A program made the position numbers and the translations under genes. A stretch of DNA of 64,000 bases from Prevotella sp. (GTDB lineage Bacteria; Bacteroidota; Bacteroidia; Bacteroidales; Bacteroidaceae), in NCBI GenBank assembly GCA_017458225.1, contig JAFTFX010000031.1, forward strand, positions 17,784-81,783. The letters run 5' to 3'. Of the stretch, positions 10,628 through 63,865 are shown in pieces. Position 1 is the stretch's first letter; each line of letters opens with the position of its first letter. The notes beneath the pieces are model-generated. The model saw only the letters and a program-made list of their open reading frames with translations. It had not been told where the DNA came from and did not search any database.

Positions 10628-10693
10628 ACAAACTCGTCGACTTTGTTAAACAAACTCGTCGACTTTGTTAAACAAACTCGTCGACTTTGTAAG
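10628..10693. repeat. 22-bp tandem array, three units
   Basis: Three direct copies of a 22-bp unit with core ACAAACTCGTCGACTTTG (10628-10649, 10650-10671, 10672-10693). The first two are identical and the third differs only in its last bases. Each unit has CAAA, nine bases, then TTTG, with GTCGAC inside. It lies in the 301-bp gap between divergent nadK and PfpI genes; the rest of that gap is AT-rich and holds the two promoters. Confidence 0.9.
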
Positions 10694-10767
10694 ACGGTTT
10701 GCCGTCGGTTGTTTTCTGTTTTGTAAAAAAATACAATCAAAATCACGGTTTATTCCGTTTTTCTTCG

Positions 10768-10775
10768 TACATTTG
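10768..10775 (+). promoter_or_regulatory. -7 box TACATTTG for the PfpI gene
   Basis: TACATTTGCA, 36 bp upstream of the ATG at 10812. Confidence 0.6.
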
Positions 10776-10811
10776 CATCACAAAGAACCTGTAATTGAAA
10801 AAAGTAAGCAA

Positions 10812-11381
10812 ATGGCAAAAGTTTATGTTTTCCTGGCCAACGGCTTCGAAGATGTCGAAGCGTTGATTCCCGTCGACGTGTTGCGTCGCGGTGGCATAGA
10901 AGTGGTAACCGTCAGCGTGGTCGACGATTCCCAGGTGGTGGAGACGGCTCATCGTGTGCGCATTGAGGCAGACCGGATGTTTGCCGATTGCGACTTCAGC
11001 GATGCCGACCTGCTGATGCTGCCGGGCGGAATGCCTGGGGCCAGCAACCTGAACAATCACGACGGCGTGCGCAGTGCACTGCTGAAACAGCATGCTGCAG
11101 GCAAGCGGGTGGCTGCCATCTGTGCCGCTCCGCTGGTGCTGGGCGGACTGGGCATCCTGCGCGGCAAGCGGGCCACCTGTTATCCAGGCTTCGAGCAGAC
11201 GCTGGAAGGCGCTACCTATACAGGCAACCTCTGCACCGTCGACGGCAATGTGACCACTGGTGAGGGTCCTGCTGCTGCCTTCCCCTTTGCCTACGCCCTG
11301 CTCTCGCAGCTGAAGGACGAACAGACGGCCCGGCAAGTGGCTGTGGGCATGCGATATGCACACTTAATGGAGCGCGAGTGA
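10812..11381 (+). CDS. DJ-1/PfpI family protein
   Basis: DJ-1/ThiJ/PfpI superfamily protein of 189 residues; members act as glyoxalases, deglycases, chaperones or amidotransferase-like enzymes. It begins [20 protein letters not shown], typical of DJ-1-like sequences, with the acidic residue in GFEDVE, a [10 protein letters not shown] loop and the nucleophile cysteine in [10 protein letters not shown]. The longer upstream frame starts within the repeat array and is rejected, as the ATG at 10812 sits correctly behind the -7 box. Its stop overlaps the ispD start (TGATG), so the two are co-transcribed, as is common in Bacteroidetes. The exact reaction is unknown. Confidence 0.9.
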
Positions 11382-12034
11382 TGGATTATGTAATCATCGT
11401 GGCAGGCGGCAAAGGCCTGCGAATGGGTGGCGACATTCCCAAGCAGTTCCTGCCGGTGGCAGGACTGCCGGTGCTGATGCGTACCATGCTGCGCTTCCGC
11501 GAGGCGCTGCCCGAATTGCAGATTATCCTGGTACTGCCCAAGGCTCAGCAGGAATACTGGCGAGGCCTGTGTGCTGCCCATCAGTTTAACATCGACTATC
11601 TGTTGGCCGATGGCGGCAAGACACGCTTCCACTCCGTTCAGAGCGGACTGGCACTCGTGCCCGACGATGCTGAGGGCGTGGTGGGTGTTCACGACGGCGT
11701 GCGTCCCTTCGTGTCGGTAGAGGTCATCCGCCGTTGCTATGAGGAGGCTCGCACGGCCAAGGCCGTCATTCCCGTCATTCCCGTTGTGGAGACCTTGCGC
11801 CACGTCACCGAGGGCACCAAGCCGCGCGATGAATACCGGCTGGTGCAGACACCCCAGTGCTTCGACATCCAGTTGCTGAAGGCTGCCAACAGTCAGCCCT
11901 ATCGCGACTCGTTCACCGACGATGCCTCGGTGGTGGAGGCCTACGGACATGCCGTCACACTCGTAGACGGCAACCGCGAGAACATCAAAATCACCACCCC
12001 TGCCGACCTGCTCTTAGCCGAATCATTGTTGTAA
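11381..12034 (+). CDS. ispD: 2-C-methyl-D-erythritol 4-phosphate cytidylyltransferase
   Basis: Third step of the MEP isoprenoid pathway: makes CDP-ME from MEP and CTP. The 217-residue protein begins [20 protein letters not shown] with the CTP-binding GGKGLRMG...PKQF motif, DGVRPFVS in the middle and [12 protein letters not shown] near the C-terminus, all conserved in IspD. The ATG at 11381 overlaps the PfpI stop; a GTG one codon earlier is possible. recG follows 3 bp after the stop. Confidence 0.96.
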
Positions 12035-12037
12035 AAA

Positions 12038-14134
12038 TTGGACATCCTCTCACAAGACATCATGTACTTGCCGGGCGTAGGCCCTAACCGCAAGAAAATG
12101 CTGAGTCAGGAACTCGGCATAGAGAGCTATGGCGACTTGTTGGAGTACTATCCCTATAAGTATGTCGACAGGAGCAAGGTCTACGAGGTGCGCGAGCTGA
12201 CGGGCGACATGCCCTTCGTGCAAGTGGTGGGACATATCCTGAGTTTTGAGACCTTCCCGATGGGGCCGCGCAAGGAACGGGTGGTCGCCCACTTCAGCGA
12301 CGGCACGGGCATCATGGATCTGGTGTGGTTCAATGGCGGAAAATATGCCAAGCAGAGCTACAAGATAGGCAAGGACTATCTGGTCTTTGGAAGACCGTCG
12401 GTGTTCAACAACCGCATTCAGGTGCAGCATCCTGACATTGATGATGCAACGAAGGTGGACACGACGGCCATGGGCATGCAGCCCTACTACAACACGACGG
12501 AGAAGATGAAGAAGGTGAACTTCAACTCGCGTGCGGTAGAACGGCTGACCAAGACACTGCTGGAGAAACTGAAAGAGCCGCTGCCTGAGACTATCATCCC
12601 TGACATACTCGCCAGCCGTCATCTGATGTCGCGCAACGAAGCCCTGCGTACCATTCATTATCCGCAGAATGCACGCGATCTGGAGCGTGCCCGTCTGCGC
12701 ATGAAGTTCGAGGAACTCTTTTTCGTACAATTAAATATATTAAGGTATGCAAGCGACCTGCGGCGCAAATATCGCGGCTATGTGTTCAATCGCATCGGTG
12801 AGCTGTTCAATACCTTTTATAAAGAGAACCTGCCTTTCGAGTTGACCAACGCCCAGAAACGGGTGATTCGCGAGATACGGCAGGACACCTGTTCGGGTCG
12901 GCAGATGAACCGTCTGTTGCAAGGCGATGTAGGTTCGGGCAAGACTCTTGTGGCACTGATGTCGATGCTTATTGCACTTGATAATGGCTATCAGGCCTGC
13001 ATCATGGCACCTACGGAGATTCTCGCTGAGCAACATCTGGTGACCATCAAGGATTTCCTGAAAGACATGCCTGTCCGAGTGGAACTGCTCACGGGCATCG
13101 TGAAGGGCAAGCGCCGGCAGGAAGTGCTCGACGGCCTGCTTACGGGCGAAGTGCAGATACTGGTGGGCACCCATGCGGTGATTGAAGACACCGTGCAGTT
13201 CCAGAAACTGGGCATGGTGGTGGTCGACGAACAGCATCGCTTCGGCGTGGCTCAGCGTGCTAAGCTGTGGAGCAAAAGTGAACAGCCGCCCCATGTGCTG
13301 GTGATGACGGCAACGCCCATTCCGCGCACACTGGCCATGACGCTCTATGGCGACCTGGACGTGAGCGTCATTGATGAACTGCCGCCCGGACGTAAGCCCA
13401 TCCAGACGACACATGTCTTTGACAATCGCATGACCTCGCTCTATGAGGGCATTCGCAGGCAGATTCGTGAAGGTCGGCAGGTCTACATCGTGTTCCCCTT
13501 GATCGAGGAGAGCGAGAAATCGGATTTGAAGAATCTGGAACAGGGCTTCGAAGTGCTCCGTGAGGCTTTCCCTGAGTTCCGCCTGAGCAAGGTGCACGGC
13601 AAGATGAAGCCTAAGGACAAGGAAGAAGAAATGCAGAAGTTCGTTCGTGGGGAGACGCAGATACTCGTGGCAACAACCGTGATCGAGGTGGGGGTCAATG
13701 TGCCCAATGCCTCTGTGATGGTCATCCTCGATGCCCAGCGGTTCGGACTTTCGCAGCTCCATCAGCTCAGAGGCCGCGTGGGGCGCGGTGCCGACCAGTC
13801 GTTTTGCATCCTGGTTACTACCTATAAACTCAGCGAGGACACACGCAAGCGTATTGATATCATGTGCGAAACGAACGATGGCTTCCGCATTGCCGAGGCC
13901 GACCTGAAGTTGCGTGGCCCCGGCGATCTGGAGGGAACCCAGCAGAGCGGTATGGCCTTCGACCTGAAGATTGCCGATATTGCCCGCGACGGACAAGTGG
14001 TGCAGATGGCCCGCGACGAGGCCCAGAAAGTGATTGACGAGGATCCCCTGTGCCAATCGCTTAAATATCAGATGCTTTGGAACCGACTGAAGGAATTACG
14101 TAAAACCAATGTTAATTGGGCGGCCATTTCCTGA
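12038..14134 (+). CDS. recG: ATP-dependent DNA helicase RecG
   Basis: Branch-migrating helicase that reverses stalled replication forks and processes Holliday junctions. The 698-residue protein has the N-terminal wedge/OB domain (MYLPGVGPNRKKML near the start, VVAHFSDGTGIMDLVWF), then superfamily 2 helicase motifs: LLQGDVGSGKTLVAL (Walker A), APTEILAEQH, VVDEQHRFGV (DEAH-type box), TATPIPRTLA, and the C-terminal QLRGRVGRG and RGPGDLEGTQQSG motifs. Start is taken as TTG at 12038, three bases after the ispD stop, because MDILSQDIMYLPGVGP matches the family's N-terminus; ATG at 12062 is the alternative. Confidence 0.96.
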   Translation: MDILSQDIMYLPGVGPNRKKMLSQELGIESYGDLLEYYPYKYVDRSKVYEVRELTGDMPFVQVVGHILSFETFPMGPRKERVVAHFSDGTGIMDLVWFNGGKYAKQSYKIGKDYLVFGRPSVFNNRIQVQHPDIDDATKVDTTAMGMQPYYNTTEKMKKVNFNSRAVERLTKTLLEKLKEPLPETIIPDILASRHLMSRNEALRTIHYPQNARDLERARLRMKFEELFFVQLNILRYASDLRRKYRGYVFNRIGELFNTFYKENLPFELTNAQKRVIREIRQDTCSGRQMNRLLQGDVGSGKTLVALMSMLIALDNGYQACIMAPTEILAEQHLVTIKDFLKDMPVRVELLTGIVKGKRRQEVLDGLLTGEVQILVGTHAVIEDTVQFQKLGMVVVDEQHRFGVAQRAKLWSKSEQPPHVLVMTATPIPRTLAMTLYGDLDVSVIDELPPGRKPIQTTHVFDNRMTSLYEGIRRQIREGRQVYIVFPLIEESEKSDLKNLEQGFEVLREAFPEFRLSKVHGKMKPKDKEEEMQKFVRGETQILVATTVIEVGVNVPNASVMVILDAQRFGLSQLHQLRGRVGRGADQSFCILVTTYKLSEDTRKRIDIMCETNDGFRIAEADLKLRGPGDLEGTQQSGMAFDLKIADIARDGQVVQMARDEAQKVIDEDPLCQSLKYQMLWNRLKELRKTNVNWAAIS

Positions 14135-14206
14135 CAGCGTAAACGTTTAAGTGTTAAAAGACCCCAAAAAACACACTTGAGTTGCCGTTTTCTTGCGGTT
14201 TTGTAT

Positions 14207-14214
14207 TACTTTTG
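14207..14214 (+). promoter_or_regulatory. -7 box TACTTTTG for the M23/LysM gene
   Basis: TACTTTTGCA with a TTG about 23 bp upstream (14182). Lies 80 bp before the ATG at 14294, which rules out the longer upstream frame. Confidence 0.6.
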
Positions 14215-14293
14215 CACCGTCTATTTGAATAGCCGATATTGTTTTCCATTTGGAACAAGGCTGCTTTTTGACCCTAAAAACATTAACCAAAAA

Positions 14294-15238
14294 ATGATGA
14301 TTCTTAAGAAAATTAGAAATATTGCAGTTATTGTCGCCACCTCATTTGCCGTGCTTCCCGTCATGGGACAGGACCTGCTGGCCAATCAGGCTCCCATTGA
14401 TCGCAAGATGAAGTCAGTGGATGCTGAGATGCTGAAGCAACTGGTTGAGATTGAGGAGTATGACTCGCCTGCCGATGAGTTGTATGAAGATTGGGACAAT
14501 ACCTATGCACACCGCCAGACAGCATTGCCCGATTCGTTCCGCATTGACTTGCGCGACTTCTATATGCCTACTCCGAGTCGCGTGATAACGTCGAACTTCG
14601 GTTCACGCTGGGGCCGTCAGCACAAGGGCCTTGACATCAAGGTGTATATAGGCGATACAATCCGTGCTGCATTCAGCGGAAAGGTGCGTGTGGTGCGCTA
14701 CGAGGGACGAGGCTACGGCAAATACGTCGTTATTCGTCACCCCAACGGACTGGAGACCATCTACGGACACATGTCGAAACAGCTTGTTGCTGAAAATCAG
14801 GATGTGAAGGCCGGCGAACCCATCGGACTGGGTGGCAATACGGGCCGCAGCACAGGCTCGCACCTGCATTTCGAGACCCGTCTCTGCGGCGTGGCACTGA
14901 ATCCTGCCATCATGTTCGACTTTGTCAACCAGGACATCGTGAACGACTTCTATGTGTTCCATAAGGATTCCTACGAGCAGGATGGTCGTTTGGCCACACA
15001 GCTTCGCGGAGCCAATGGCAAGCACGGCTACGATCCTGCTATGGTGAACAGTCCCAATGTGGGTAAGTCGCACCAGGCTTCCAGCGGTGGTTCTGCTCGC
15101 TATCATAAGGTTCGCAAAGGCGAGACGCTCTCGTCGATTGCACGTAAGCATGGCACCAGTGTGAAGGCTATCTGCAAGCTGAACCGCATCAGTCAGAACG
15201 TTCGCCTGCGTCCAGGACAAATTTTGAAGTACAATTGA
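14294..15238 (+). CDS. Exported M23 peptidase with LysM domain
   Basis: Probable periplasmic peptidoglycan endopeptidase or divisome activator of the NlpD/EnvC sort. The 314-residue protein has a signal peptide ending near VLPVMGQ, then an M23 (LytM) domain at about residues 100-215 with HKGLD (first His and Asp of HxxxD), YGHMS and HLHFE (HxH), so the zinc ligands are intact. A LysM domain follows at about 270-314 (HKVRKGETLSSIARKHGTS). Start at the ATG-ATG pair at 14294 behind the promoter. A strong terminator follows at 15260. Confidence 0.9.
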   Translation: MMILKKIRNIAVIVATSFAVLPVMGQDLLANQAPIDRKMKSVDAEMLKQLVEIEEYDSPADELYEDWDNTYAHRQTALPDSFRIDLRDFYMPTPSRVITSNFGSRWGRQHKGLDIKVYIGDTIRAAFSGKVRVVRYEGRGYGKYVVIRHPNGLETIYGHMSKQLVAENQDVKAGEPIGLGGNTGRSTGSHLHFETRLCGVALNPAIMFDFVNQDIVNDFYVFHKDSYEQDGRLATQLRGANGKHGYDPAMVNSPNVGKSHQASSGGSARYHKVRKGETLSSIARKHGTSVKAICKLNRISQNVRLRPGQILKYN

Positions 15239-15259
15239 TTCTTCAATAGCAATAAATTG

Positions 15260-15297
15260 AATAACGGCCAAAATTTTCAAAATTTTGGCCATTATTC
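15260..15297 (+). terminator. Terminator hairpin after the M23/LysM gene
   Basis: AATAACGGCCAAAATTTT pairs with AAAATTTTGGCCATTATT across a TC loop (one C-A mismatch), followed by CTTT. A second, partial copy of the AAATTTTAGCCAAAATT word follows at 15300. Confidence 0.7.
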
Positions 15298-15320
15298 TTT
15301 AAATTTTAGCCAAAATTCTT

Positions 15321-15349
15321 TTTGACCTCTATTAATATTTGTAATTTTG
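15321..15349 (+). promoter_or_regulatory. Promoter for hpt: TTTG - 17 bp - TAATTTTG
   Basis: Full Bacteroidetes-type promoter: TTTG at 15321-15324 and TAATTTTG at 15342-15349, 26 bp before the hpt ATG. Confidence 0.7.
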
Positions 15350-15375
15350 TACCCACAACATAATATAGAACCGCA

Positions 15376-15915
15376 ATGAGCAGAGTGACCATTAAAGACA
15401 AAACGTTTGAGACATCGATGCCGGAGGCGCAAATCAAGTGGCGCGTCAAAGAGCTGGCCCAACAGATTTCAAAGGATATGGAGGGTAAGAATCCATTGTT
15501 TCTGGCCGTACTGAACGGAGCCTTTATCTTTGCTGCAGACCTGATGCGCGAGATGACTATCCCCTGCGAGATATCGTTTGTGAAGCTGGCCAGTTATCAA
15601 GGCACCACGTCGACAGGAAAAATCAAGGAGGTGATGGGCATCAACGAAGACTTGAGCGGCCGCACGGTCATCATCTTGGAGGACATCGTGGAGACTGGAC
15701 TCACCATCCGCCAGATGATAGAGTCGCTGGGCACTCGCAATCCGGCCTCCATCCATGTATGCACCTTGTTCTTTAAGCCGGAGAAATTGCAGGAAGACCT
15801 CAATCTGGAGTATGTGGCCTTCCGCATTCCTAATGATTTCATCTTGGGCTATGGCCTCGACTACGACCAGCAGGGCCGCGGTCTGAAAGACCTCTACACG
15901 CTGGTTTCGGAATAA
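15376..15915 (+). CDS. hpt: Hypoxanthine phosphoribosyltransferase
   Basis: Purine salvage: converts hypoxanthine (and guanine) plus PRPP to IMP or GMP in the cytoplasm. The 179-residue protein has the PRPP-binding loop VIILEDIVETGLT, the FVKLASYQGT flexible-loop region with its SY pair, and the C-terminal FILGYGLDYDQ that holds the catalytic/nucleobase site. It precedes adk by 84 bp of repeat-rich DNA; both act in purine nucleotide metabolism. Confidence 0.95.
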   Translation: MSRVTIKDKTFETSMPEAQIKWRVKELAQQISKDMEGKNPLFLAVLNGAFIFAADLMREMTIPCEISFVKLASYQGTTSTGKIKEVMGINEDLSGRTVIILEDIVETGLTIRQMIESLGTRNPASIHVCTLFFKPEKLQEDLNLEYVAFRIPNDFILGYGLDYDQQGRGLKDLYTLVSE

Positions 15916-15930
15916 AGACGGGAAAAAGAA

Positions 15931-15992
15931 GTATCGAAATCGCGGAATTTCGAAATCTCGAAATAACGTGAAACGACATAACGAAATAACGA
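15931..15992. repeat. Short-word repeat between hpt and adk
   Basis: CGAAAT words (ATCGAAATCGCGG, TTTCGAAATCTCGAAATAACG, AACGAAATAACG) recur about five times in 60 bp, ending just before the adk ATG. Same style as the ftsL-ftsI and adk-obgE spacers but a different word. Confidence 0.6.
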
Positions 15993-15999
15993 CAACAAT

Positions 16000-16572
16000 A
16001 TGAAGAATATCGTGATTTTTGGTGCACCAGGCTCAGGCAAGGGCACACAGAGCGACAAGTTAATTGAGAAATATGGTCTGGAGCATATCTCTACGGGTGA
16101 TGTACTGCGTGCTGAAATCAAGAAAGGCACCGAACTGGGCAAGACGGCTCAGCAGTTCATTGACAACGGACAGCTGATTCCCGACGACCTGATGGTGAGC
16201 ATCCTGGCCAGCGTCTACGACTCTTTCGGCCGCGAGCACAAGGGCGTTATCTTCGACGGCTTCCCTCGCACCATTCCGCAGGCAGAGGCTTTGAAGAAGA
16301 TGCTCAACGAGCGTGGCGACAAGATTGCAGCCATGCTGGAACTTGATGTGCCCGAAGATGAGCTGATGAAGCGCCTCATTCTGCGTGGACAGCAGAGTGG
16401 CCGTGCCGACGATAACGAGGAGACCATCAAGAAACGCCTTGTGGTCTATCACTCACAGACACAGCCGCTCATTGAGTGGTACAAGCAGGAAGGACTGCAT
16501 CACCACATCGACGGTCTGGGCAGCCTGGATCGTATCTTCGCAGATATCTGTGCGGTGGTTGAAAAAATCTAG
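16000..16572 (+). CDS. adk: Adenylate kinase
   Basis: Cytoplasmic enzyme that interconverts ATP + AMP and 2 ADP. The 190-residue protein has the P-loop GAPGSGKGTQ, ISTGDVLRAEIK (AMP site), the FDGFPRTIPQAE signature and RADDNEETIKKRL. The LID is the short type, as in Bacteroidetes, so there is no zinc-cysteine cluster. obgE follows after an 81-bp spacer made of repeated CTAG words. Confidence 0.97.
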   Translation: MKNIVIFGAPGSGKGTQSDKLIEKYGLEHISTGDVLRAEIKKGTELGKTAQQFIDNGQLIPDDLMVSILASVYDSFGREHKGVIFDGFPRTIPQAEALKKMLNERGDKIAAMLELDVPEDELMKRLILRGQQSGRADDNEETIKKRLVVYHSQTQPLIEWYKQEGLHHHIDGLGSLDRIFADICAVVEKI

Positions 16573-16645
16573 TAAACTAGTTGCTAGTATTGCTAGTATT
16601 ACTAGTATCACTAGGATAACTAGTATCACTAGGCATACTAGCTAA
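16573..16645. repeat. CTAGTAT-word repeat between adk and obgE
   Basis: Starting at the adk stop (CTAG), the spacer is seven or eight imperfect copies of a CTAGTATYRCTAG-like word at about 9-11 bp spacing, including self-complementary ACTAGT. It ends just before the obgE ATG. Confidence 0.7.
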
Positions 16646-16653
16646 ATCATTTT

Positions 16654-17841: not shown

Positions 17842-17856
17842 CGAAAACAGTGGTAT

Positions 17857-18522
17857 ATGAATGTAAAAAGGATTCTTTCTAGTCTCTGTCTGTGTACGGC
17901 TTTGCAGGCCTGTTCGCAGAGCACTTTCACACCCAGAAAGTATCCTTTTCCCATACCCGTTGAGGCTCCTCCGCAGCTTACTATGCAGGAGCAGGCTGAG
18001 ACGCAGGCAGAAGAGCGCAAACGACTGCTGGGCGACCCTTTCAAGGGGAAAACCGTGCTGACAGTAGACCTGCGCGATATTCCTGATGATGCATGGTGCT
18101 ATCCGCTGCCGGGGGCAAAGGTGATCAGTGCCTATGGAGCCCGTGGCGGTCGGGGACATTCGGGTGTAGACCTGAAGACCAGGGCCAATGACACTATTCT
18201 GGCCGCCTTCGATGGCATTGTGACGATGTCGCAGCCGTTTGCCGGCTATGGCAACTGCATCATTGTGCGCCATTACAACGGCTTGGAGACACTCTATAGT
18301 CACAATGTGAAAAACCTGGTGAGAGAAGGGCAACGGGTAACGGCAGGACAGAAAATCGCCCTGACGGGGCGCACAGGGCGCGCCACAACGGAGCATTTGC
18401 ATTTCGAAGTACGTGTGAGCGGTCGCCACTACGATCCTCAGATTATCTTCGATCATGCATCAAAAAAACTGAAACGACGTCAACTGAACTTCACAAAAGG
18501 CGGCGGAGTAACGGCAAAATAG
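17857..18522 (+). CDS. M23 peptidase lipoprotein
   Basis: Probable lipid-anchored peptidoglycan endopeptidase, 221 residues. Signal peptide with lipobox LQACS gives a lipidated cysteine at residue 19. The M23 domain (about 85-200) has GHSGVD (HxxxD), a YSHN loop and HLHFEV (HxH), so zinc ligands appear complete. It lacks a LysM domain, unlike the M23 gene at 14294, and its core is clearly related to that gene. It is 15 bp after obgE, so probably co-transcribed. Confidence 0.88.
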   Translation: MNVKRILSSLCLCTALQACSQSTFTPRKYPFPIPVEAPPQLTMQEQAETQAEERKRLLGDPFKGKTVLTVDLRDIPDDAWCYPLPGAKVISAYGARGGRGHSGVDLKTRANDTILAAFDGIVTMSQPFAGYGNCIIVRHYNGLETLYSHNVKNLVREGQRVTAGQKIALTGRTGRATTEHLHFEVRVSGRHYDPQIIFDHASKKLKRRQLNFTKGGGVTAK

Positions 18523-18585
18523 CCTATTTTCCATTCTTTTTGAAAAATATGCCGCAATTTAAGGTCTAATATGATTTTTTTTGTT

Positions 18586-25643: not shown

Positions 25644-25841
25644 GTAGAAAACAACTTATATTACGGTGCAAAGCATCGTTGCTTGCAGTACAAAGCATCG
25701 TTGTTTGCGGTACAAATCAATTCACATTGCAACTTTTGCTTGTAAGCAAACGACCTTCTGCTTACAAGCAAAAGGCCATTCGGTTGTAAGCAAATGAACT
25801 TTTGCTTACAAGCAAAAACCTGTTAGCAGCGATTTTCTGAC
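25644..25841. repeat. 22-bp period array, nine units
   Basis: Nine consecutive 22-bp units (starts at 25644, 25666, 25688, 25710, 25732, 25754, 25776, 25798, 25820) with no gaps. Units 2-4 share GTACAAAGCATCGTTG; units 5-8 share a GCTTGTAAGC core that alternates with its reverse complement GCTTACAAGC; unit 9 runs into the duplicated block. The same two word families, in the same order and phase, occur in the array at 63690. Confidence 0.9.
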
Positions 25842-25970
25842 TTTTCCTGATTTCACTAGACACTTTTTCTCTTTATTAACTGAGTCAGTAGACAGTTGTT
25901 ATGTTGTCATACTGGTTTGATAGACACAAGCGAAAAAGCTGTGCCGTTTTTGTTGACGCTTCGGTCATGC
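25838..25970 (+). repeat. 133-bp duplicated block, copy 1
   Basis: Identical to 63862-63994 except for one base (A at 25910, G in the other copy), ungapped, 38,024 bp apart and in the same orientation. It holds the palindrome ACTGAGTCAGT at 25879-25889 and most of a short ORF starting at 25901. The similarity fades at the start of the next gene. Confidence 0.95.
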
Positions 25971-25981
25971 TCGACCTATGA
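25901..25981 (+). CDS. Short ORF in the duplicated block, overlapping the HTH-like gene
   Basis: A 26-codon frame beginning MLSYWFDRHKRKSC and ending LDL, with its TGA overlapping the next gene's ATG (ATGA at 25978). In the other copy of the block both base differences inside the frame (TCA/TCG and CTC/CTG) are synonymous, which is what a translated sequence would show. It could be a coupled leader peptide, or the N-terminus of a longer protein that is frameshifted in this copy. No family is recognised; VFVDAS recalls the first strand of NYN-type nucleases, but this is too short to judge. Confidence 0.35.
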   Translation: MLSYWFDRHKRKSCAVFVDASVMLDL

Positions 25982-44916: not shown

Positions 44917-45092
44917 TTGCAATCGGCGTCATCTTCTGCTGCAATCTGCCTTAGATTTCGCTCTGATTAACGTCAAACTTCGCTCTGGTTAATATCAGAT
45001 TGCAGCGAAGTTTGACGTTAATTAGAGCAGAGTTTGACGTTAACTATAGCAGAAAATGACGTTAATCGTGCCAGAGTTTGCCGCAATTCAAA
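44917..45092. repeat. 22-bp period array, eight units
   Basis: Eight contiguous 22-bp units starting at 44917, 44939, 44961, 44983, 45005, 45027, 45049 and 45071. Units 5-7 share GCAGAGTTTGACGTTAA; unit 3 has its reverse complement (TTAACGTCAAACTTCG), so the word is present in both orientations without losing phase. The last unit contains the TTTG at 45077, which is 21 bp from the -7 box of the MFS gene. The 559-bp gap between parC and the MFS gene also holds the two inverted repeats and a GC-richer 100-nt leader. Confidence 0.88.
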
Positions 45093-55517: not shown

Positions 55518-55522
55518 TTGAC

Positions 55523-56371: not shown

Positions 56372-56382
56372 AAATGTAATTA

Positions 56383-58707
56383 TTAATGATTGAATTGTAG
56401 CGTTGCTGACTGTAGCCAAGGCGATGAGGCTTCAATCACGATGCGCCCCTCGGCTTGTGGCTGCAGATAGGCCACGAGTCGCCCTTGATGGGCACGCAGC
56501 GTGTTTCTGCGTTGCCGTCCGGCTACCGTGGCATCCATGATGTTGCCGTTCTCCATGCCCAGCAGACGGGCTCCTTGCACCCTCAGCGTCACCTCGTTGT
56601 CGGCCTGTCTTACAAGATTGCCATCTTCGTCGACGATGTCGATGAACACGTGACAGAGGGAATCGGTTGTTAGGCGCAAGGCATGGGGGGCCTTTGTGCT
56701 CTTCACCTCGTATGCTGCACCGTTGTCGGCCTCACAGCGCAGGGTGCCCGGCTGGTAGTCAATGTCCCAATAGAGCATGCCGCTGTTGTCGTCGCGTTGA
56801 GGCTCGCCCCCGATGGGACTGCCGTTCAGCAGCAGTCGTGCCGATGAGGCATTGGTGTAGCAGACCACGCGCGTTTGGTTTCCCCTGCGGCGGTTCCTTG
56901 TCTCTATAAAGCACACTGGCTCCTTGCTCCACAAGGCAGCACGATACCAGCCGAGGGGCTTTCTGAATCCCGCCAGATCGAGCAGTCCGGCACTGGAGCC
57001 ACGTGCCGGCCATGTGCCGCTCTCGCCTAAGTAGTCGATGCCCGTCCAAAGAAACTGTCCGAAGATGTGCTCTTTCTCGCTGACGGCACGCCATGCAGCA
57101 AGGTCGTGGCGGTTCTCTGAGCCGTAGATGACGCGGTTGGGGTATTTCTGATGGTCGCTGTCGTAGCGGCTTTCCGTGTAGTTATAGCCCACTACGTCGA
57201 CAGCCTCGGGATATTCCGTCTCGTTCGACATCACCACGCCGGCCAGTGCACCCGTCGTGGGTCGCGAAGGGTCGATGGTCTTCACAATCTTGGCCAGTCG
57301 CTTGGCAATTTTTCCGATGCGCTCGGCATGTGGCTGGTCGGGCTTGTAGCCGCCGTATGCCGGCTGTGTGAAGTCGGTGCCGTTGCCGTTGAGCACGGGG
57401 TGAGAGTAGGGGTCGTTGGGGTAGTCCACCTCGTTGCCTATCGACCACATGAAGATACTGGGATGGTTGCGGTCGCGCCGCACCATGTCGGCCACGTCGC
57501 GGTCAATCCACTGCTCAAAGTAGGTATAGGTGCCTTGGAATCCAGGTCTTCCCTGGTTCCAGCCCTTCATCCACTTGCGCTTGGGAAACTCCCACTCGTC
57601 GCTGGCCTCGTCCATGACCAGCAGACCAAGCTCGTCGCACAGGTCGTATAGCTCGGGCGTGTGTGGGTTATGGCTCATGCGGATGGCGTTCACGCCGATG
57701 GCTTTCAGTTCCTTGAGGCGGCGCTCCCACACAGCCTTGGGAACGGCAGTGCCCAGCACGCCGGCATCGTCGTGCAGACAAACACCCTTCACCTTCATCC
57801 ATTCACCGTTCAGCGCGAAGCCACGGGTGGGCGAGAAGTCCAGCGTGCGCAGACCGGCGGTGACCTCTGAGTGGTCGCCGTTGTTAAGGGTCGTCGTGAG
57901 CGTGTAAAGGTAAGGGTCGTCGAGATACCAGCGATGGGGATTCTTGACGGTGAGGGTGACGGTCTTCTTCTCCTGCGTGCCGATGTTCGTCGCAGTCTTA
58001 GCCACCACATTGCCTTGGGCATCCTTCAGTTCAACAGTGGCCTGTAGTCTATAGTCTGTGCTCTTTAGTCTCTCATCTGTGGTCTCCACATCCACCTCTA
58101 CCACTGCCTTTTTCTTGTCGATACTCTTCAGCCGATAGGCCGTGCCCCACTGTGCCAGATGCACCTCAGGAGCCTTGACGAGCCACACGTTGCGGTTGAT
58201 GCCCGAGCCTGTGTACCAGCGCGAGTCGGCATCCTGCGAGTGGTCAACGCGCACGGCAACCACATTGCTGCCCTCTTTATTTAAATAAGGTGTGATGTTG
58301 TAGAGCACCGAGGCAAACCCGCTGGGGCGACTGCCGGCCAACTGTCCGTTGACATAGACCTCAGCATGGTTGTAGATGCCTTCGAAGTAGAGGAAAACAT
58401 ACTCCCCCGATGCCTCCATGCTTCTCCTATACCAGCCTATTCCTCCCGTCAGATAGCCCTGGCAGCTGCCTTTGTCGGGCGACATGGGCTGCTCCACGCC
58501 CCAGTCGTGGGGGAGCGTCACCTGTCGCCAGCGCGAGTCATCATAGTCGCTGTTTCGCATGTCGGGGGCTTCAAATACGTTCCATGCGGTGTCCACACGC
58601 AGGAATCGCCATCCGTCGTTCAGCAGTTCCGCCTGGCCGAACGACACCTGTGCCTGTGCTTTCGTCAGAAAAAGTAGGCTGAGAATCAGTAGGTTAAATC
58701 TTTTCAT
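56383..58707 (-). CDS. Glycoside hydrolase family 2, beta-galactosidase/glucuronidase type
   Basis: 774 residues, exported (signal MKRFNLLILSLLFLTKAQAQ). Order: sugar-binding jelly roll (about 25-190), immunoglobulin-like domain (190-295, with a repeat-encoded insert at about 210-222), TIM barrel with acid/base Glu426 in WSIGNEVDYP and nucleophile Glu531 in YGSENRHD, then C-terminal domains of the DUF4982 type (YQPGTLRCEADNG) and a final beta domain. The QFLWTGIDYLGESG motif is typical of Bacteroidetes GH2 enzymes with galactosidase activity. Substrate cannot be told from sequence. It is not in a SusCD locus; it follows the MacAB-type genes by 29 bp. Confidence 0.9.
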   Translation of the reverse strand: MKRFNLLILSLLFLTKAQAQVSFGQAELLNDGWRFLRVDTAWNVFEAPDMRNSDYDDSRWRQVTLPHDWGVEQPMSPDKGSCQGYLTGGIGWYRRSMEASGEYVFLYFEGIYNHAEVYVNGQLAGSRPSGFASVLYNITPYLNKEGSNVVAVRVDHSQDADSRWYTGSGINRNVWLVKAPEVHLAQWGTAYRLKSIDKKKAVVEVDVETTDERLKSTDYRLQATVELKDAQGNVVAKTATNIGTQEKKTVTLTVKNPHRWYLDDPYLYTLTTTLNNGDHSEVTAGLRTLDFSPTRGFALNGEWMKVKGVCLHDDAGVLGTAVPKAVWERRLKELKAIGVNAIRMSHNPHTPELYDLCDELGLLVMDEASDEWEFPKRKWMKGWNQGRPGFQGTYTYFEQWIDRDVADMVRRDRNHPSIFMWSIGNEVDYPNDPYSHPVLNGNGTDFTQPAYGGYKPDQPHAERIGKIAKRLAKIVKTIDPSRPTTGALAGVVMSNETEYPEAVDVVGYNYTESRYDSDHQKYPNRVIYGSENRHDLAAWRAVSEKEHIFGQFLWTGIDYLGESGTWPARGSSAGLLDLAGFRKPLGWYRAALWSKEPVCFIETRNRRRGNQTRVVCYTNASSARLLLNGSPIGGEPQRDDNSGMLYWDIDYQPGTLRCEADNGAAYEVKSTKAPHALRLTTDSLCHVFIDIVDEDGNLVRQADNEVTLRVQGARLLGMENGNIMDATVAGRQRRNTLRAHQGRLVAYLQPQAEGRIVIEASSPWLQSATLQFNH
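58041..58086. repeat. In-frame short-word repeat inside the GH2 gene
   Basis: Words of TAGTCT/AGTCTGT type (coding strand AGACTAAAG, AGACTATAGACTACAG) encode TTDERLKSTDYRLQ in a linker-like loop of the GH2 immunoglobulin-like domain. Confidence 0.5.
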
Positions 58708-58736
58708 GTGTTGGTTGGTTATGGGGTTGCTATCAG

Positions 58737-59900
58737 TTAATTGCCAGTCTCTGTCAGGATTTGCGGACCGCGCACCTTCTCAGTTGCGTCGATGCCTTTC
58801 TTAACCTCGATGTTCACGCCGTCAGACAGTCCTGTCTCAATGGGTGTGCGGCGGTAAGTCGGCTTGCTGCCTTCGCCTTCAATGACGTAGACGAATGTTG
58901 AGTCGCCACTGAACTCGATGGCACTCTCAGGGATGGTGAGCACCTGCTGCACACTGGCCAGCACTATCTCGGCATTGGCCGAATAGCCGGAGCGCAAGGG
59001 CGATCCGCCAACAGGACCGTATGCCGGAATAACGGGCTCGCCAGTGTCTTTCTTCTGGAGCGAGTTCAGTTGGACGGCAGCCTTGATCTCGAACTGGTTG
59101 GCACCGTTGCTCTCAGTGGCCTTGGGCGAGATATACTCCAGGGCGGCATCGAACGACAAGTCCTGCAAGGCACCGACCGTGATTTTCATCGGCATGCCGA
59201 TGTGCAGTTGGCCCACCTCGGTCTCGTCTATGTTGCCACGGAAGATGAGGTCGCTCATGTTGGCCACCGACGCAATGGTCGTGCCGTCATTGAACGTGTT
59301 TGAGTTGATGACGCTGTTGCCCACCTTGACGGGAATGTCGAGGATGATGCCGCTGATAGTAGAGCGAACCAGGGTCGACGATGCCGAGGCATTCGACTTC
59401 GACACACCGTCGCGCACCACCTGCAGGGCATCTTGTGCAGCGGCCACCTCCTGATCGGCTTGGCGCAGCACCTGTGCAACCTTGTCGAACTCGTCGGCCG
59501 ACACCAGTTGCCGGTCGTAGAGGCTCTTCTCGCGTTCGAAGTCAATACGGGCCTGCCGCTGGTTGATCTCAGCCAAGCGCACGCGCGACTCTGCTGCCGA
59601 CAGTTGTCCCATGTCGGGAATCACCTTCACCTTGGCGATGATGTCGCCTTCGCGCACATAGTCGCCGGCTTGTTTCGTCAGTTCGGTGATGATGCCCGAT
59701 ATCTGCGGCTTCACGTTCACCTCGTTGCGAGGCTCAATCTTTCCGGTGATGACGGTTGTCTTCTCCACGTTGCCCACCGTGGGCGTGAACTCGTTGTACA
59801 CGACCTCCTGGGGCCGACTTTTCATCCACAGGAACACGAAGGTCCCGATAAAAATGATTGCTACGATGGCGGCAATAATCAGTTTGCTGTATTTCTTCAT
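58737..59900 (-). CDS. MacA/HlyD-type periplasmic adaptor
   Basis: 387 residues: one N-terminal membrane anchor (LIIAAIVAIIFIGTFVFLWM), then barrel-sandwich hybrid (VTGKIEPRNEV region, read as ITGKIEPRNEVNVKPQISG in part: KPQISGIITEL), a helical hairpin (about 105-170, QRQARIDFEREKSLYDRQ), lipoyl half LVRSTISGIILDIPVKVG, and beta-barrel domain (IDETEVGQLHIGMPMKITV). This is the membrane-fusion protein of a MacAB-like system. It is followed by no outer-membrane factor; the usual TolC-type gene is absent here. It lies 15 bp after a permease gene. Confidence 0.9.
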   Translation of the reverse strand: MKKYSKLIIAAIVAIIFIGTFVFLWMKSRPQEVVYNEFTPTVGNVEKTTVITGKIEPRNEVNVKPQISGIITELTKQAGDYVREGDIIAKVKVIPDMGQLSAAESRVRLAEINQRQARIDFEREKSLYDRQLVSADEFDKVAQVLRQADQEVAAAQDALQVVRDGVSKSNASASSTLVRSTISGIILDIPVKVGNSVINSNTFNDGTTIASVANMSDLIFRGNIDETEVGQLHIGMPMKITVGALQDLSFDAALEYISPKATESNGANQFEIKAAVQLNSLQKKDTGEPVIPAYGPVGGSPLRSGYSANAEIVLASVQQVLTIPESAIEFSGDSTFVYVIEGEGSKPTYRRTPIETGLSDGVNIEVKKGIDATEKVRGPQILTETGN

Positions 59901-59915
59901 TGTTGTTAATGTTTT

Positions 59916-61172
59916 TTATTCGTCTCTCATTGCATCGACCGGCTTGATGCTCATGGCGCGCGCTGCCGGGGCCAAGCCTGCCAGCACCCCCATGACCGAC
60001 ACCACAAAGGCGGCGAACAGGGCTGTCCAAAAGTCTACTTGGAAGTGGGCTTCCACCATGCCGTCAGTGGTATTGGCCAGTTCGAGCATCTGCAGCACCA
60101 TCACTGCCAGCAGAATGCCGGTCATGCCGGCAATCAGCGTGAGGACGATGCTCTCCGAGATGATCTGCGACAGAATCATGCGTGGCGTGGCTCCGATGGC
60201 ACGTCGGATGCCTATCTCGGTGGTGCGTTCGCGCACGGTGACCATCATGATGTTCGACACACCGATGGCTCCTGCCAGTAGAGTGCCCAGACCTACCAGC
60301 CATATCAGGAAGTTGACCCCTCGGAACAGGTTGTCGAGCAGTTGGAACAGCACTTCGGTGTTGAACACCATCAGGCCCTGCTCGTCGGCAGGATCAACAT
60401 AGTGTGCACGGGCGATGGTCTCACGGATGCGCGGTGTGATCTTGCTCATCACCACTCCCTTTCGTCCCGTCACGATGATCATGTCCACCTGGTTACCTCG
60501 GTTGTAGGTCTGCTGCACCAGCGACAGCGGCAGCGTGATTTTCTCCTCGGCGCGTCCGTTGAAGTTCATCGATGCATTGGTGTTATAGTCAACGCCCACC
60601 ACCTCGTAGTAGGTGGAGTCGATGCGTATTTTCTTGCCGCAGGGGTCGCCGCCCTCCTTGAACAGGTCCTTATAGACTTTCTTGCCGATGACGCACACCT
60701 TGCGGTGCTCGTGTATGTCCATGCTGTTGATGAAGCGGCCGTAACGCATGCGAGGGGCAACGACAAGGGCATAGTCGGGCGTGGTGCCCTGAATGCGCGG
60801 CGAGGTGCGCTGGTCGGAGTAGTAGGCGGTGTTCGAGAGTCCCCACGGTGCAAACAGGATGGGGGCCGTCACGTCGAGCTCGGGCACGCGCCGGCGCAGC
60901 CGTTCAATATCCTTATGGTCCATCGACCACCAGCGGCCTTTCCTGAAGCCCTTGTAGGGCTTGGTGGTCTGCTGTGCCCAGATCATGGCGGTGTTCTGTG
61001 CGAAGCCGTCGAAGTTTTTCTCCAGCATCTCCTTCAGACCTTTGCCGCCCCCCATCAGTGCGATGAGCATGAAGATGCCCCAGAACACGCCGAAGCCGGT
61101 CAGCAGTGAGCGCGACTTGTTGCGTGTCAGGGTGTCGATGATTTCGCGATAGCTGTCAATATCTATTCTCAT
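59916..61172 (-). CDS. MacB-type ABC permease (second)
   Basis: 418 residues: N-terminal membrane helix (TGFGVFWGIFMLIALMGGG), a large periplasmic domain (about 50-275), and three C-terminal helices of the FtsX fold beginning LIWLVGLGTLLAGAIGVSNIMMVTVRERTTEIGIRRAIGA (key part GVSNIMMVTVRERTTEIGIRRA). This is the MacB/FtsX membrane part without its ATPase domain. It is paired with the related permease 17 bp upstream and so likely forms a heterodimer. Substrate unknown; MacAB-like systems export peptides, toxins or lipoproteins. Confidence 0.92.
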   Translation of the reverse strand: MRIDIDSYREIIDTLTRNKSRSLLTGFGVFWGIFMLIALMGGGKGLKEMLEKNFDGFAQNTAMIWAQQTTKPYKGFRKGRWWSMDHKDIERLRRRVPELDVTAPILFAPWGLSNTAYYSDQRTSPRIQGTTPDYALVVAPRMRYGRFINSMDIHEHRKVCVIGKKVYKDLFKEGGDPCGKKIRIDSTYYEVVGVDYNTNASMNFNGRAEEKITLPLSLVQQTYNRGNQVDMIIVTGRKGVVMSKITPRIRETIARAHYVDPADEQGLMVFNTEVLFQLLDNLFRGVNFLIWLVGLGTLLAGAIGVSNIMMVTVRERTTEIGIRRAIGATPRMILSQIISESIVLTLIAGMTGILLAVMVLQMLELANTTDGMVEAHFQVDFWTALFAAFVVSVMGVLAGLAPAARAMSIKPVDAMRDE

Positions 61173-61189
61173 AGTCAGAGGGGCGTTTG

Positions 61190-62443
61190 TCAGTCGGCAC
61201 GTAGTGCCTCGATGGGGCGTATGCTGGCAGCTTTATAGGCTGGTATCAGTCCGGCCACCGTTCCTGCCAGCACCATCACGAGCGTGGCCTCCAGGCACAC
61301 GTCGAGACCCACGGTGGGATTGACGAACATGGTGGCTTTGAACAGGCCGGTGTCGATGGTGTCGTGGCCCAGTGTGGCATCCATATACTCGTTGGCCATG
61401 ATGCCCAGCAGCATGCCCAGATAGCCGAAGAAGGTGGTGATGATGACGCTCTCCACGATGATGAGGCGCAGAATGCTCCACGGCTTGGCGCCGATGGCCT
61501 TGCGGATGCCGAACTCATGGGTACGCTCGCGCACCGTGATGAGCATGATGTTCGAGACTCCCACGATGCCGCTCAGCAGCGTGAACAGTCCCACAATCCA
61601 CAGGGCAGTGCGAATGATGCCGATGCCCGTCTCCATCTGCATGTTCTGCGTGTAGCGGTTCCACAGCCACACGGCACTATGGTCGTCGGGGTGGGCCTGA
61701 TGGTTGGCGTTCAGCCGTTTGCGATAGGCCGTCTCGAACAGCTCGTTGGAGGCTTCGGTGGTCAGTCCGTGAAAGGTGAACTCAATGTCGCCGGCGCTGT
61801 TGTTGCCGGCACCGAAGATGCGCTTGATGGTGGTGTATGACGAGAAGGCTTCCGACGCGCCGCTCTCTTCGTCCTTGTAGATGCCCACCACGCGGAACAT
61901 TAGGTTGCCCACCTTGACATAGCGGCCGAAGAGGCGGCGGTAGTCGCGTGGCTGCAGCTCCTTGGCCTGCTTCGAACTGAGCACCAGCACCTTGCGCGAC
62001 TCTCGGATGTCCACCTCGTTGATGAAGCGGCCTTGCAGCATCTCCACCTTGTCAATCTTCGTGTGGTTGGGATAGACACCTCTCACCTCGGTCGCCATGT
62101 ATTCCTGGCCGTTGGTGATCACCACGCTCGTAGTGTAGCTGGCTCCCACCTCGTCGATAATGTCGGGGAACGCGGTGGCCGTGGCCGAAAGGTCGCCTTT
62201 CTGCAGTTGGATGGTGCGCCCCTCCTTCAGTCCCTGATAGGCCTTCGAGGTGCGGCCGCCGAACACCATCATGGAGTTCGACAGGAAGCGCTCTGACTCT
62301 TGCAGCTGGGCATTGATGAGACCGTTGCCGGCACCCAGCAGGACAATCAGCATGAAGATGCCCCAGGCAACGGCAAAGCCCGTCAGTGCAGTGCGCAGCC
62401 TATTGCGTCGCGCCGTCTGCCATATCTCCTTCAATAACTCCAT
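61190..62443 (-). CDS. MacB-type ABC permease (first)
   Basis: 417 residues with the same plan as the next gene: helix 1 (TGFAVAWGIFMLIVLLGAG), a periplasmic domain with a WNRYTQNMQ segment, and the C-terminal GVSNIMLITVRERTHEFGIRKA core with three helices. Its first 44 bp overlap the end of the ATPase gene, showing tight coupling. Sequence differs enough from its partner to be an old duplication. Confidence 0.92.
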   Translation of the reverse strand: MELLKEIWQTARRNRLRTALTGFAVAWGIFMLIVLLGAGNGLINAQLQESERFLSNSMMVFGGRTSKAYQGLKEGRTIQLQKGDLSATATAFPDIIDEVGASYTTSVVITNGQEYMATEVRGVYPNHTKIDKVEMLQGRFINEVDIRESRKVLVLSSKQAKELQPRDYRRLFGRYVKVGNLMFRVVGIYKDEESGASEAFSSYTTIKRIFGAGNNSAGDIEFTFHGLTTEASNELFETAYRKRLNANHQAHPDDHSAVWLWNRYTQNMQMETGIGIIRTALWIVGLFTLLSGIVGVSNIMLITVRERTHEFGIRKAIGAKPWSILRLIIVESVIITTFFGYLGMLLGIMANEYMDATLGHDTIDTGLFKATMFVNPTVGLDVCLEATLVMVLAGTVAGLIPAYKAASIRPIEALRAD

Positions 62444-63086
62444 CCTTGATGCGAATGATGCGGTTGGTCTGTTCGCCCACGTGGGGATCGTGGGTCACGA
62501 TGATCTGTGTGATGTGCTCCTCGGCATTCAGCTGCTTCAGCAGTTGCATCACCTCGATGCTGGTCTTCGAGTCGAGGGCACCAGTGGGCTCGTCGGCCAG
62601 AATCATCTGGGGCTTCGTGATGAGTGCGCGGGCGATGGCCACGCGCTGCTTCTGTCCGCCAGAGAGCTCGTTGGGATAGTGCTCTGCCCAGTCGAGCAGG
62701 CCCAGACGCTCCAGATATTCCAGCGCCAGCGTGTGCCGTTTGCGGCGCGACACGCCCTGATAGAACAGCGGAAGCTCTACATTCTCCACGGCGGTCTTAA
62801 ACGAAATGAGGTTGAACGACTGGAAGATGAAGCCTATCATGTGGTTGCGATACTCGGCAGCCTTTGCCTCCGAGAGGTTCCAGATGGGCACGCCGGCCAG
62901 CTCGTAGGTGCCCGAGTCGTAGTTGTCCAGAATGCCCAGGATGTTCAGCAGCGTAGACTTGCCCGAGCCCGATGCCCCCATGATGGAGACGAACTCGCCG
63001 CGCCGTATGTCGAGCGTGATGCCCTTCAGCACATGCAGCGGCTGGGCTCCCTGATAGGTCTTATGGATATCTTTCAAGTGTATCAT
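62400..63086 (-). CDS. ABC transporter ATPase, MacB/LolD type
   Basis: 228 residues from ATG 63086 (MIHLKDIHKTYQG). Walker A GASGSGKST, Q-loop with FIFQSFNLIS, signature LSGGQKQRVAIARALI, Walker B MILADEPTGALD, switch His in VTHDPHV. It powers the two FtsX-type permeases downstream, whose first gene overlaps its 3' end by 44 bp. An earlier frame start at 63158 would overlap the fur gene and is not supported. It follows fur by 40 bp. Confidence 0.95.
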   Translation of the reverse strand: MIHLKDIHKTYQGAQPLHVLKGITLDIRRGEFVSIMGASGSGKSTLLNILGILDNYDSGTYELAGVPIWNLSEAKAAEYRNHMIGFIFQSFNLISFKTAVENVELPLFYQGVSRRKRHTLALEYLERLGLLDWAEHYPNELSGGQKQRVAIARALITKPQMILADEPTGALDSKTSIEVMQLLKQLNAEEHITQIIVTHDPHVGEQTNRIIRIKDGVIEGDMADGATQ

Positions 63087-63126
63087 GCGAAAAACAGGTG
63101 TTCTGTGTGTAGGGTAGGGGTGACGG

Positions 63127-63558
63127 TCAGTGTGCTTGGTGCTTGGCGCAGTCGGCACAGATGCCCTTCACGATATATTCGGTCTCCTCGGGCACGAAGC
63201 CTTCCGGCAGAGCCACCGGCGGAATGCGCACATTGGTCAGGCAGAACGTCTTGTGGCACACATGGCAGCTCAGGTGCACATGCCCCATGCAATGACGGGT
63301 ATCGTCAACGTGGCACACGCAGTATTTCTGCGAACCGCTGCCGTCGTCGATGTCGTGCAGCAGATGGGCCTCGCTGAGCAGCGTCAGCGTGCGGAAGAGC
63401 GTAGAACGGTCTATCGTGGGCAATGCGGCTTCAAGGTCGGCCAGACTGAACGGACCGGCAAACGAGTGGCGCACCTTGCGCCAGATGAGCAGGCGGTTGG
63501 CAGTGATGCGGATGCCTGCATTGTCGAGCGATTGCTCGTCGGAGATGTCCATGTGCAT
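63127..63558 (-). CDS. Fur family transcriptional regulator
   Basis: 143 residues from ATG 63558. Winged-helix DNA-binding half (about 10-85: AGIRITANRLLIWRKV, then FSLADLEAALPTIDRSTLFRTLTLL; key part DRSTLFRTL) and a C-terminal dimer/metal half with HMGHVHLSCHVCHKTFC and ICADCAKH, giving the two CxxC zinc pairs and a His-rich site. An ATG at 63594 lies inside the promoter -7 box (63592) and is rejected; 63552 is another candidate. Fur, Zur or PerR type cannot be separated by eye; the short form and His pattern suggest Zur- or PerR-like. It heads the MacAB operon and may regulate it. Confidence 0.88.
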   Translation of the reverse strand: MHMDISDEQSLDNAGIRITANRLLIWRKVRHSFAGPFSLADLEAALPTIDRSTLFRTLTLLSEAHLLHDIDDGSGSQKYCVCHVDDTRHCMGHVHLSCHVCHKTFCLTNVRIPPVALPEGFVPEETEYIVKGICADCAKHQAH

Positions 63559-63591
63559 GTTGGTGAAATAGAGTTTTCTTCGTTCAACGTG

Positions 63592-63599
63592 CAAAATTA
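63592..63599 (-). promoter_or_regulatory. -7 box TAATTTTG for the fur-MacAB operon
   Basis: TAATTTTGCA on the minus strand, 33 bp upstream of the chosen fur ATG. The 90 bp between this and the array at 63690 hold nothing else recognised. Confidence 0.6.
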
Positions 63600-63689
63600 G
63601 TCATTATTTATCAATTGACTGCATCCTGCGCATAGTTTTTTTGTTTTCTTTATCAAGGACGGGGAATTGTGGCTATAGCACGGATGACA

Positions 63690-63865
63690 CTACAATGCAG
63701 CGCATATTGCAGTACAACACAGCATATATTACGGTACAACACAGTACAGATGGCGGTACAAAGCATCGTTGTTTCCAGCTTTTGCTTGTAAGCAAACGAC
63801 CATTCGCTTGTAAGCAAAAGGCCATTCGGTTGTAAGCAAGCGACCATTCACTTACAAGCAATGAC
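63690..63865. repeat. 22-bp period array, eight units
   Basis: Eight contiguous units starting at 63690, 63712, 63734, 63756, 63778, 63800, 63822 and 63844. Units 2-4 begin GTACAA (unit 4 has GTACAAAGCATCGTTG, as in the 25.6-kb array); units 5-8 share the TTGTAAGCAA core, inverted in unit 8 (CTTACAAGCA). The final unit runs in phase into the duplicated block. Confidence 0.9.

Follow-up and report, generated by a model that had tools for sequence, protein, structure and literature searches.

RESULTS

Tandem arrays in the window

The DNA studied here is a stretch of 64,000 nucleotides from Prevotella sp. (assembly GCA_017458225.1, contig JAFTFX010000031.1, positions 17,784 to 81,783), hereafter the window, which carries short tandem arrays with units of 22 or 21 bp that we consider candidate binding sites for proteins of the HU-HIG family. 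A preliminary description had reported four arrays of 22-bp period; Tandem Repeats Finder (TRF), used throughout for array detection, places period 22 at five positions and period 21 at one more, so that the set is larger than noted (Table 1). It had also given each locus a word of its own, which held in part: several word families are present, but the two F7 arrays belong to one family, with 16 loci in the genome. In the first F7 array, A units (GGTACAA followed by a variable 15 bp) precede four B units centred on the palindrome GCTTRYAAGC, all of them 22 bp long. The inverted half of the F2 array at 45009 begins near 44950, and F2-like arrays were recognised by eye at loci L027, L029, L032, L035 and L036. 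The repeat at 6284 is the weakest case among the window arrays. A scan of the window against Rfam returned two tRNAs only, with no match at the arrays.

Table 1. Arrays and associated elements in the window (positions are those of the 64,000-nucleotide stretch)
Feature	Position	Strand	Description
F1 array	10628..10690	+	Three units ACAAACTCGTCGACTTTGT, 22-bp period; TRF; one of 15 dispersed copies in the source genome
Palindromic array, 21 bp	15267..15321		TRF period 21; GGCCAAAATTTT-like
F7 composite array	25669..25821	+	TRF period 22; one of 16 genome loci
F2 array	44950..45082		Directional 22-bp units TGACGTTAATTAGAGC in two inverted halves; TRF part 45009-45066
F7 composite array, second window copy	63677..63861	+	TRF period 22
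Weak 22-bp repeat, 2.4 copies	6284..6336		TRF; mostly within start of ORF 5173-6303; membership uncertain
134-bp element	25842..25975	+	Possible end of an insertion sequence
134-bp element, second window copy	63866..63999	+	Located at contig end

A common period with differing words

The periodicity was followed in a sample of the source genome (G000, 75% complete) made of 20 stretches of 20 kb (400 kb; 464 kb with the window) and taken mostly from F7-bearing contigs, the window included. In these 464 kb the most frequent TRF period was 22, with 36 rows. An ungapped scan for 22-bp segments with at least 18 matches at a given lag detected lag 22 at five places in the window and 16 in the 400-kb sample, lag 21 at one and seven places, the double lag 44 at three and 10, and lags 20 and 23 at none in either. 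The lag scan proposed in the preliminary description, run on this sample, found arrays well beyond the window and a signal above that of other lags: z was 5.3 in intergenic DNA and −0.5 in coding DNA. Since lag 22 is elevated in intergenic and not in coding DNA, the periodicity is more than chance.

The same lag stood out in intergenic DNA of other members of the genus, with z of 5.5 in G016, 3.7 in G024, 4.0 in G003 with G004, 9.1 in G026, 5.2 in G028, 4.7 in G005 and 6.8 in the loci of CAMYVQ (an uncultured Prevotella); in G008 it was 2.7, and lag 21 reached 5.0. The samples of the source genome, G003, G004, G016, G024, G026 and G035 were picked independently of matches to the F1 word, and those of G005, G008, G028 and CAMYVQ through such matches, which biases them toward arrays. 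After masking of the TRF arrays, lag-22 z was 4.2 in G016, 4.9 in G003 with G004, 5.5 in G026, 3.9 in G005, 2.7 in G028, 2.4 in CAMYVQ, 2.3 in G024, 1.3 in the source genome and −0.1 in G008; in coding DNA it ranged from −0.5 to 2.3 across the sampled genomes. Seven genomes of other families had no lag-22 excess (pooled z −0.8, single genomes −1.5 to 1.4), with 21-bp arrays in one of them and 23-bp arrays in another. The period is therefore common to the sampled members of the genus while the words differ, and the earlier observation that spacing is kept and the word varied extends to the whole genome. The most frequent TRF period in the G008 sample was 7, and at its loci L087 and L092 long period-21 repeats, some of them based on heptamers (TAAACCC-like), adjoin F1 arrays.

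The arrays fall into several dispersed families that have one period in common and words that are mostly palindromic. The families of the source-genome sample comprise F1 (ACAAACTCGTCGACTTTGT), F2 (TGACGTTAATTAGAGC, in inverted halves), F3 (GGAGTAnTACTCC), F4 (TTACCA..TGGTAA), F5, F6 (AATTTATGCATAAATT, 21 bp) and F7. Dyad symmetry over all 22-bp arrays was in weak excess (74 rows versus 90 of other periods, p 0.01), weak because the F2 units and the A units of F7 are directional. G024 has a different word, AAACGTTT, with 82 pattern matches per strand at up to two mismatches versus 13 for the reversed control, and the matches listed extend from 14 kb to 3.44 Mb on its single 3.5-Mb contig. Four near-identical segments of this genome (L370-L373) each contain a 694-aa gene (VapE-like in L370, the copy tested) with a AAACGTTT array 28-29 bp upstream of it, and an HU-HIG gene 2.4-5.9 kb from the array; L370 additionally has a tyrosine integrase, RloB and AAA genes, and the segments look like a satellite-type mobile element.

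Anatomy of the F1 word

An F1 copy is built of three near-palindromes, each 19 bp long and repeating every 22 bp; the 15 copies detected in the source genome all have three units, which are almost invariant, and short spacers that vary. These 3-bp spacers between 19-bp units differ from the unique, repeat-length spacers of a CRISPR array. A scan of GTDB contigs for F1 recovered 59 stretches, namely 54 from CAMYVQ, four from UBA4332 and one from RUI320, and the named records with F1 were Prevotella or Prevotellaceae. In the 54 CAMYVQ arrays, 16 of the 19 unit positions were invariant in all 162 units and position 10 was always A or T; G or C occupied positions 6 and 14 with one exception, although the scan pattern itself demanded G or C there in two units per array. 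Their 108 spacers comprised 26 distinct ones. The facing G/C positions of adjacent units were identical, and hence unpaired, at 107 of 108 junctions, and unpaired at the remaining one too.

F1 units occurred in an all-or-none fashion: the 48 units counted in the source genome (45 distinct, locus L106 being a repeat of L042) and the 162 of CAMYVQ all matched 16 of 16 fixed positions, and none matched 14 or 15. Single F1-like sites elsewhere were one scoring 15 in G016 and one scoring 14 in G024, and G005 had 13 degenerate F1-like matches. Intact units set in varying spacers suggest that selection acts on each site. The inner arms were mainly TAG/CTA and TTA/TAA in G008 and G028. The flanks are weakly conserved and carry on the 22-bp phase; their consensus has dyad symmetry, yet across 107 flanks no covariation of the paired positions was seen (z from −4.1 to 1.9). 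A dyad lacking covariation, together with positions limited to A/T or, beyond what the scan pattern imposed, to G/C, fits a protein reading duplex DNA, unlike what an RNA or a single-strand hairpin would need. Comparison of loci L162 and L169 suggests inversion of palindromic pieces.

HU-HIG genes at the array positions

Gene neighbours common across species, followed as a route to the partner, gave shared array positions and no regulator. A profile search with PF18291 (HU-HIG) did find genes at array positions. The family has up to 30 matches per Prevotella genome, and four in the source genome, where the neighbourhoods of three were seen. With genes called by a simple ORF finder, a TRF array of period 20-23 bp lay within 400 bp of 52 of 101 HU-HIG genes, upstream in 48 of the 52, against 76 of the 723 ORFs of 100 aa or longer in the samples picked independently of F1 (odds ratio 9.0); the Fisher p of 3e-20 treats genes as independent and so overstates their independence, since some HU-HIG genes are near-identical duplicates. 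The co-occurring protein family that the preliminary description called for is thus probably HU-HIG. G003 alone has arrays at 15 of 20 HU-HIG genes versus 4 of 46 sampled ORFs, and the fractions were 7/11 in G026, 5/7 in G008, 2/3 in the source genome, 2/7 in G028 and 0/8 in G024. At periods of 19-24, arrays adjoined 4 of 11 further HU-HIG genes in G058, from another family, and 2 of 4 in G046. HU-HIG-adjacent arrays were also more palindromic (mean z 2.2, n=52) than arrays of other periods (0.5, n=58; p 2e-7), the 21- and 22-bp arrays in the samples at large having a mean z of 0.9 (n=68). Among 47 arrays upstream of HU-HIG genes, a promoter-like TAnnTTTG site lay between array and gene in 19, only before the array in 12 and in neither place in 16.

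The words vary by paralog and diverge jointly with the proteins. Pairs with protein similarity of at least 0.8 had a mean word score of 21 versus about 6 below a similarity of 0.4, and 14 of the 19 pairs at or above 0.8 (12 of the 19 between genomes) shared a word (score of at least 14); between genomes the Mantel correlation of protein with word was r 0.49, reached in 0 of 2000 permutations. Five partner proteins scored 82.2, 78.2, 71.6, 69.3 and 71.8 bits against PF18291 (Pfam cut-off 26.2), and three of them also exceeded the cut-off of TIGR01201 (HU_rel). Their HU/IHF core covers about residues 30-89, and the best match in the PDB, at sequence level, was 5eka (E 1.6e-8, profile positions 30-83). 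The candidate partner is thus likely a member of the HU/IHF superfamily, of the HU-HIG family, and partner proteins resemble that family (PF18291/TIGR01201) in exceeding the PF18291 cut-off. Modular binding arrays for a repeat protein had been suggested; the binding-array part of this guess is supported, whereas the candidate is an HU/IHF-type and not a repeat protein.

Three words illustrate the association. An F1 array lies 45 bp upstream of the HU-HIG gene G000:C30:37379-37792, and F1 stands upstream of related genes (41-83% protein identity to that of G000) at 50 bp in CAMYVQ (83% identical), at 49 bp in both G028 and G069, and at 232 bp in G008. Each of the five genomes tested that abound in exact F1 thus has it at 45-232 bp from such a gene. 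Among 100 Prevotella genomes, more than three F1-pattern matches occurred only in G000, G008, G028 and G069; G066 had three, and G022 and G071 one each. Other genomes have HU-HIG proteins 46-52% identical to that of the source genome and lack F1, and the arrays found beside those genes carry other words (G017, G108, G109). The F6 word lies 67 bp upstream of a second HU-HIG gene of the source genome (C37:816) and at five dispersed places in the sample. The third word, TCATCATGATGA, occupies arrays of G003 and G026 at HU-HIG loci L296 and L314, whose near-identical genes share it; turned into a pattern before the genome-wide search (up to three mismatches), it gave 25 matches in G003 and 40 in G026, both strands and overlapping units counted, which correspond by eye to 9 and 16 loci, HU-HIG promoters included. 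Seven other genomes gave 0 matches, and the reversed pattern gave 0.

Placement of the arrays

Arrays had been described as always adjoining promoters or gene starts. For the 62 F1 arrays with both neighbours called, this did not hold: 30 had tandem neighbours, 18 convergent and 14 divergent ones, all gene pairs in the CAMYVQ, UBA4332 and RUI320 loci being 214 tandem, 45 convergent and 49 divergent. F1 placement is therefore intergenic and not confined to promoters.

Array sharing between the source genome and CAMYVQ was judged by eye, and several gap comparisons rest on one matched flanking gene. Some F1 positions are common to both (L109/L212 and L106/L213); in the second pair, L106 being a repeat of L042, the F1 array occupies the same place within the start of an ORF in the two species (L042 17591-17653, L213 2897-2959), the ORF appearing by eye to be lipoprotein-like. 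Beside other shared genes the arrays differ: downstream of the same gene the window has its 21-bp array (15267..15321) and CAMYVQ an F1 array (L195), and F1 in L201 corresponds to F2 in L027. Two weaker cases of such a swap were seen (L215, L184), and the source-genome counterparts of L187 and L175 have no array. Eight gene-linked gaps compared by eye for target-site duplications or empty sites were too diverged for borders to be placed.

The 134-bp element of Table 1 adjoins an F7 array, within about 25 bp, in all five of its genome copies (the two of the window and those at contig ends of C2, C27 and C28). It is perhaps the end of an insertion sequence, and appears as if targeted to F7 arrays. 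CTAG-rich short repeats of periods 9 and 18 were also seen near genes, at 16584-16641 of the window and in L017.

DISCUSSION

The data presented here make it fairly probable that the arrays are duplex-DNA binding sites of HU-HIG paralogs, each with a word of its own, a proposal built on sequence comparison. Each array-bearing paralog would recognise its own short, usually palindromic word, and its dimers would be seated along one face of the DNA at intervals of two helical turns, 21-23 bp and in Prevotella mostly 22; such a dimer spacing would explain why the period stays fixed while the word drifts with the paralog. Binding of a paralog to its array would be cooperative. The word at the HU-HIG promoter itself might serve autoregulation, by repression or tuning, whereas the same word at tens of other, mostly intergenic, sites would mark the chromosome. 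At these distant sites the protein would probably be a nucleoid protein with sequence specificity, bending or bridging the DNA, and close to promoters it may act as a regulator; placement between convergent genes favours chromosome folding as at least part of the role.

Several observations weigh against this proposal. Within 400 bp, 49 of the 101 HU-HIG genes have no array, including all eight of G024, although a few array-less loci are interrupted by contig ends; 7 of the 11 further genes in G058 and 2 of the 4 in G046 have none. RUI320 carries the F1 word and yet gave no HU-HIG match, and in G005, for all its F1-like matches, both HU-HIG genes examined are free of arrays. Most paralogs whose similarity is 0.4-0.8 lack a common word, and HU-HIG copy number is uncorrelated with lag-22 strength across seven genomes (rho 0.04). 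No partner was found in the 75% complete source genome for F2, F3, F4, F5, F7 or the word at 15267, and the F2 units and the A units of F7 are non-palindromic. The four HU genes from named records of the plasmid collection all lack an array within 400 bp. Upstream of one of them, at 584 bp, is a 22-bp repeat in two copies, and the plasmid and phage collections held only HU relatives of less than 60% identity.

The closest competitor is possible but clearly less probable: HU-HIG proteins would be plain transcription factors, the arrays ordinary operators and the dispersed arrays their regulon. It overlaps the proposal of paralog-specific sites along the chromosome, the sole difference being what the distant sites do. 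The position of the arrays upstream of HU-HIG genes, with a promoter-like site between array and gene in 19 of 47, agrees with it, whereas the 18 of 62 F1 arrays between convergent genes do not, and the words are less degenerate than regulon sites would generally be expected to be. A small-RNA source, with the arrays transcribed as long hairpins, had been among the earlier suggestions and is now quite improbable. F1 arrays do fold into long stems with RNA parameters, and the differences between species in their inner arms (TCG/CGA, TAG/CTA, TTA/TAA) are partly compensatory, but long stems are automatic for palindromic arrays, pairing is broken in some G008 units, and the facing G/C positions, identical at 107 of 108 junctions, are paired in none; the lack of covariation at paired positions and of any Rfam match at the arrays speaks against it as well. 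Palindromes of the REP/BIME kind spread by a RAYT (Y1) transposase would also be intergenic, arrayed and present in many copies, but seem the least credible source, as G005 and G008 have no Y1_Tnp match and the source genome a single partial one in a 432-aa frame, which covers 54 of the 121 model positions and scores 25 bits (cut-off 23).

Miniature mobile elements of the BrickBuilt type, that is, minisatellites carried by non-autonomous transposons (MITEs) that landed by chance beside HU genes, are a further alternative; the Porphyromonas repeats mentioned in the preliminary description are probably BrickBuilt. As set out in the report on Porphyromonas gingivalis, BrickBuilt comprises 19 tandem arrays scattered through intergenic DNA, whose period approximates two helical turns, and has a 23-nt unit, a leader, a tail and IS5-like terminal repeats (PMC4596501). 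The present arrays share with them dispersal in intergenic DNA, the period of about two turns and the occurrence in Bacteroidales, and differ in a unit of 22 bp, in some cases 21, in the window and genome sample. Four patterns tried for the IS5-like ends had 0 matches around 69 F1 and 16 F7 arrays, and the named records sharing F1 are Prevotella or Prevotellaceae, not Porphyromonas. Dispersal with 54 copies in one relative, array positions that mostly differ between the two species compared, the F1 copy inside an ORF start and the 134-bp element beside F7 would all suit mobile elements. Nevertheless, an origin of this kind appears unlikely: inverted repeats of the BrickBuilt type are absent around those F1 and F7 arrays, no decayed F1 units occur in the source-genome or CAMYVQ loci, spacers vary while words stay constant, and the different words upstream of different HU-HIG paralogs are left unexplained. 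BrickBuilt_14 lies between PGN_0871 (−) and PGN_0872 (+), listed as a DNA-binding protein with PF00216 (PMC4596501, Table 1), a neighbour that HU-type proteins with words of their own would predict. A genome from another family of the order (G053, locus L228) has 23-bp arrays at 8231-8298 and 9647-9736 with the palindromic core CTCACAAGTTTGTCAGTTTTTAC, perhaps akin to BrickBuilt.

Chromosomal proteins with many conserved short sites are exemplified by MatP at matS and IHF at the RIB/RIP sites of BIMEs; unlike these, HU-HIG would involve multiple paralogs in one genome, every one having a word of its own, and phased arrays instead of single sites. Plasmid iterons and their Rep proteins likewise combine direct repeats near 22 bp with a dimeric, autoregulating protein, but the arrays described here are dispersed, not gathered at one origin, and their candidate protein is HU-related. 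Our examination of the literature on HU proteins turned up no paralog-specific, word-specific dispersed arrays, though a prior description is possible.

We also lean, with less confidence than for the binding sites themselves, towards a broader view in which Prevotella has a diversifying set of HU-like proteins whose private palindromic words in phased arrays form a paralog-specific chromosome code, with BrickBuilt as another instance. Protein and word would then co-diverge, and arrays in a given gap would be replaced by those of another word. The association links two unexplained features of Bacteroidales genomes, the multiplied HU-like genes and the abundant unclassified minisatellites, and renders the role of the extra HU proteins directly testable, because each protein comes with a predicted list of targets. 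The HU superfamily is best known for weak sequence specificity; if the proposal is true, its members can evolve new sequence specificity fast, which would be unusual for the family.

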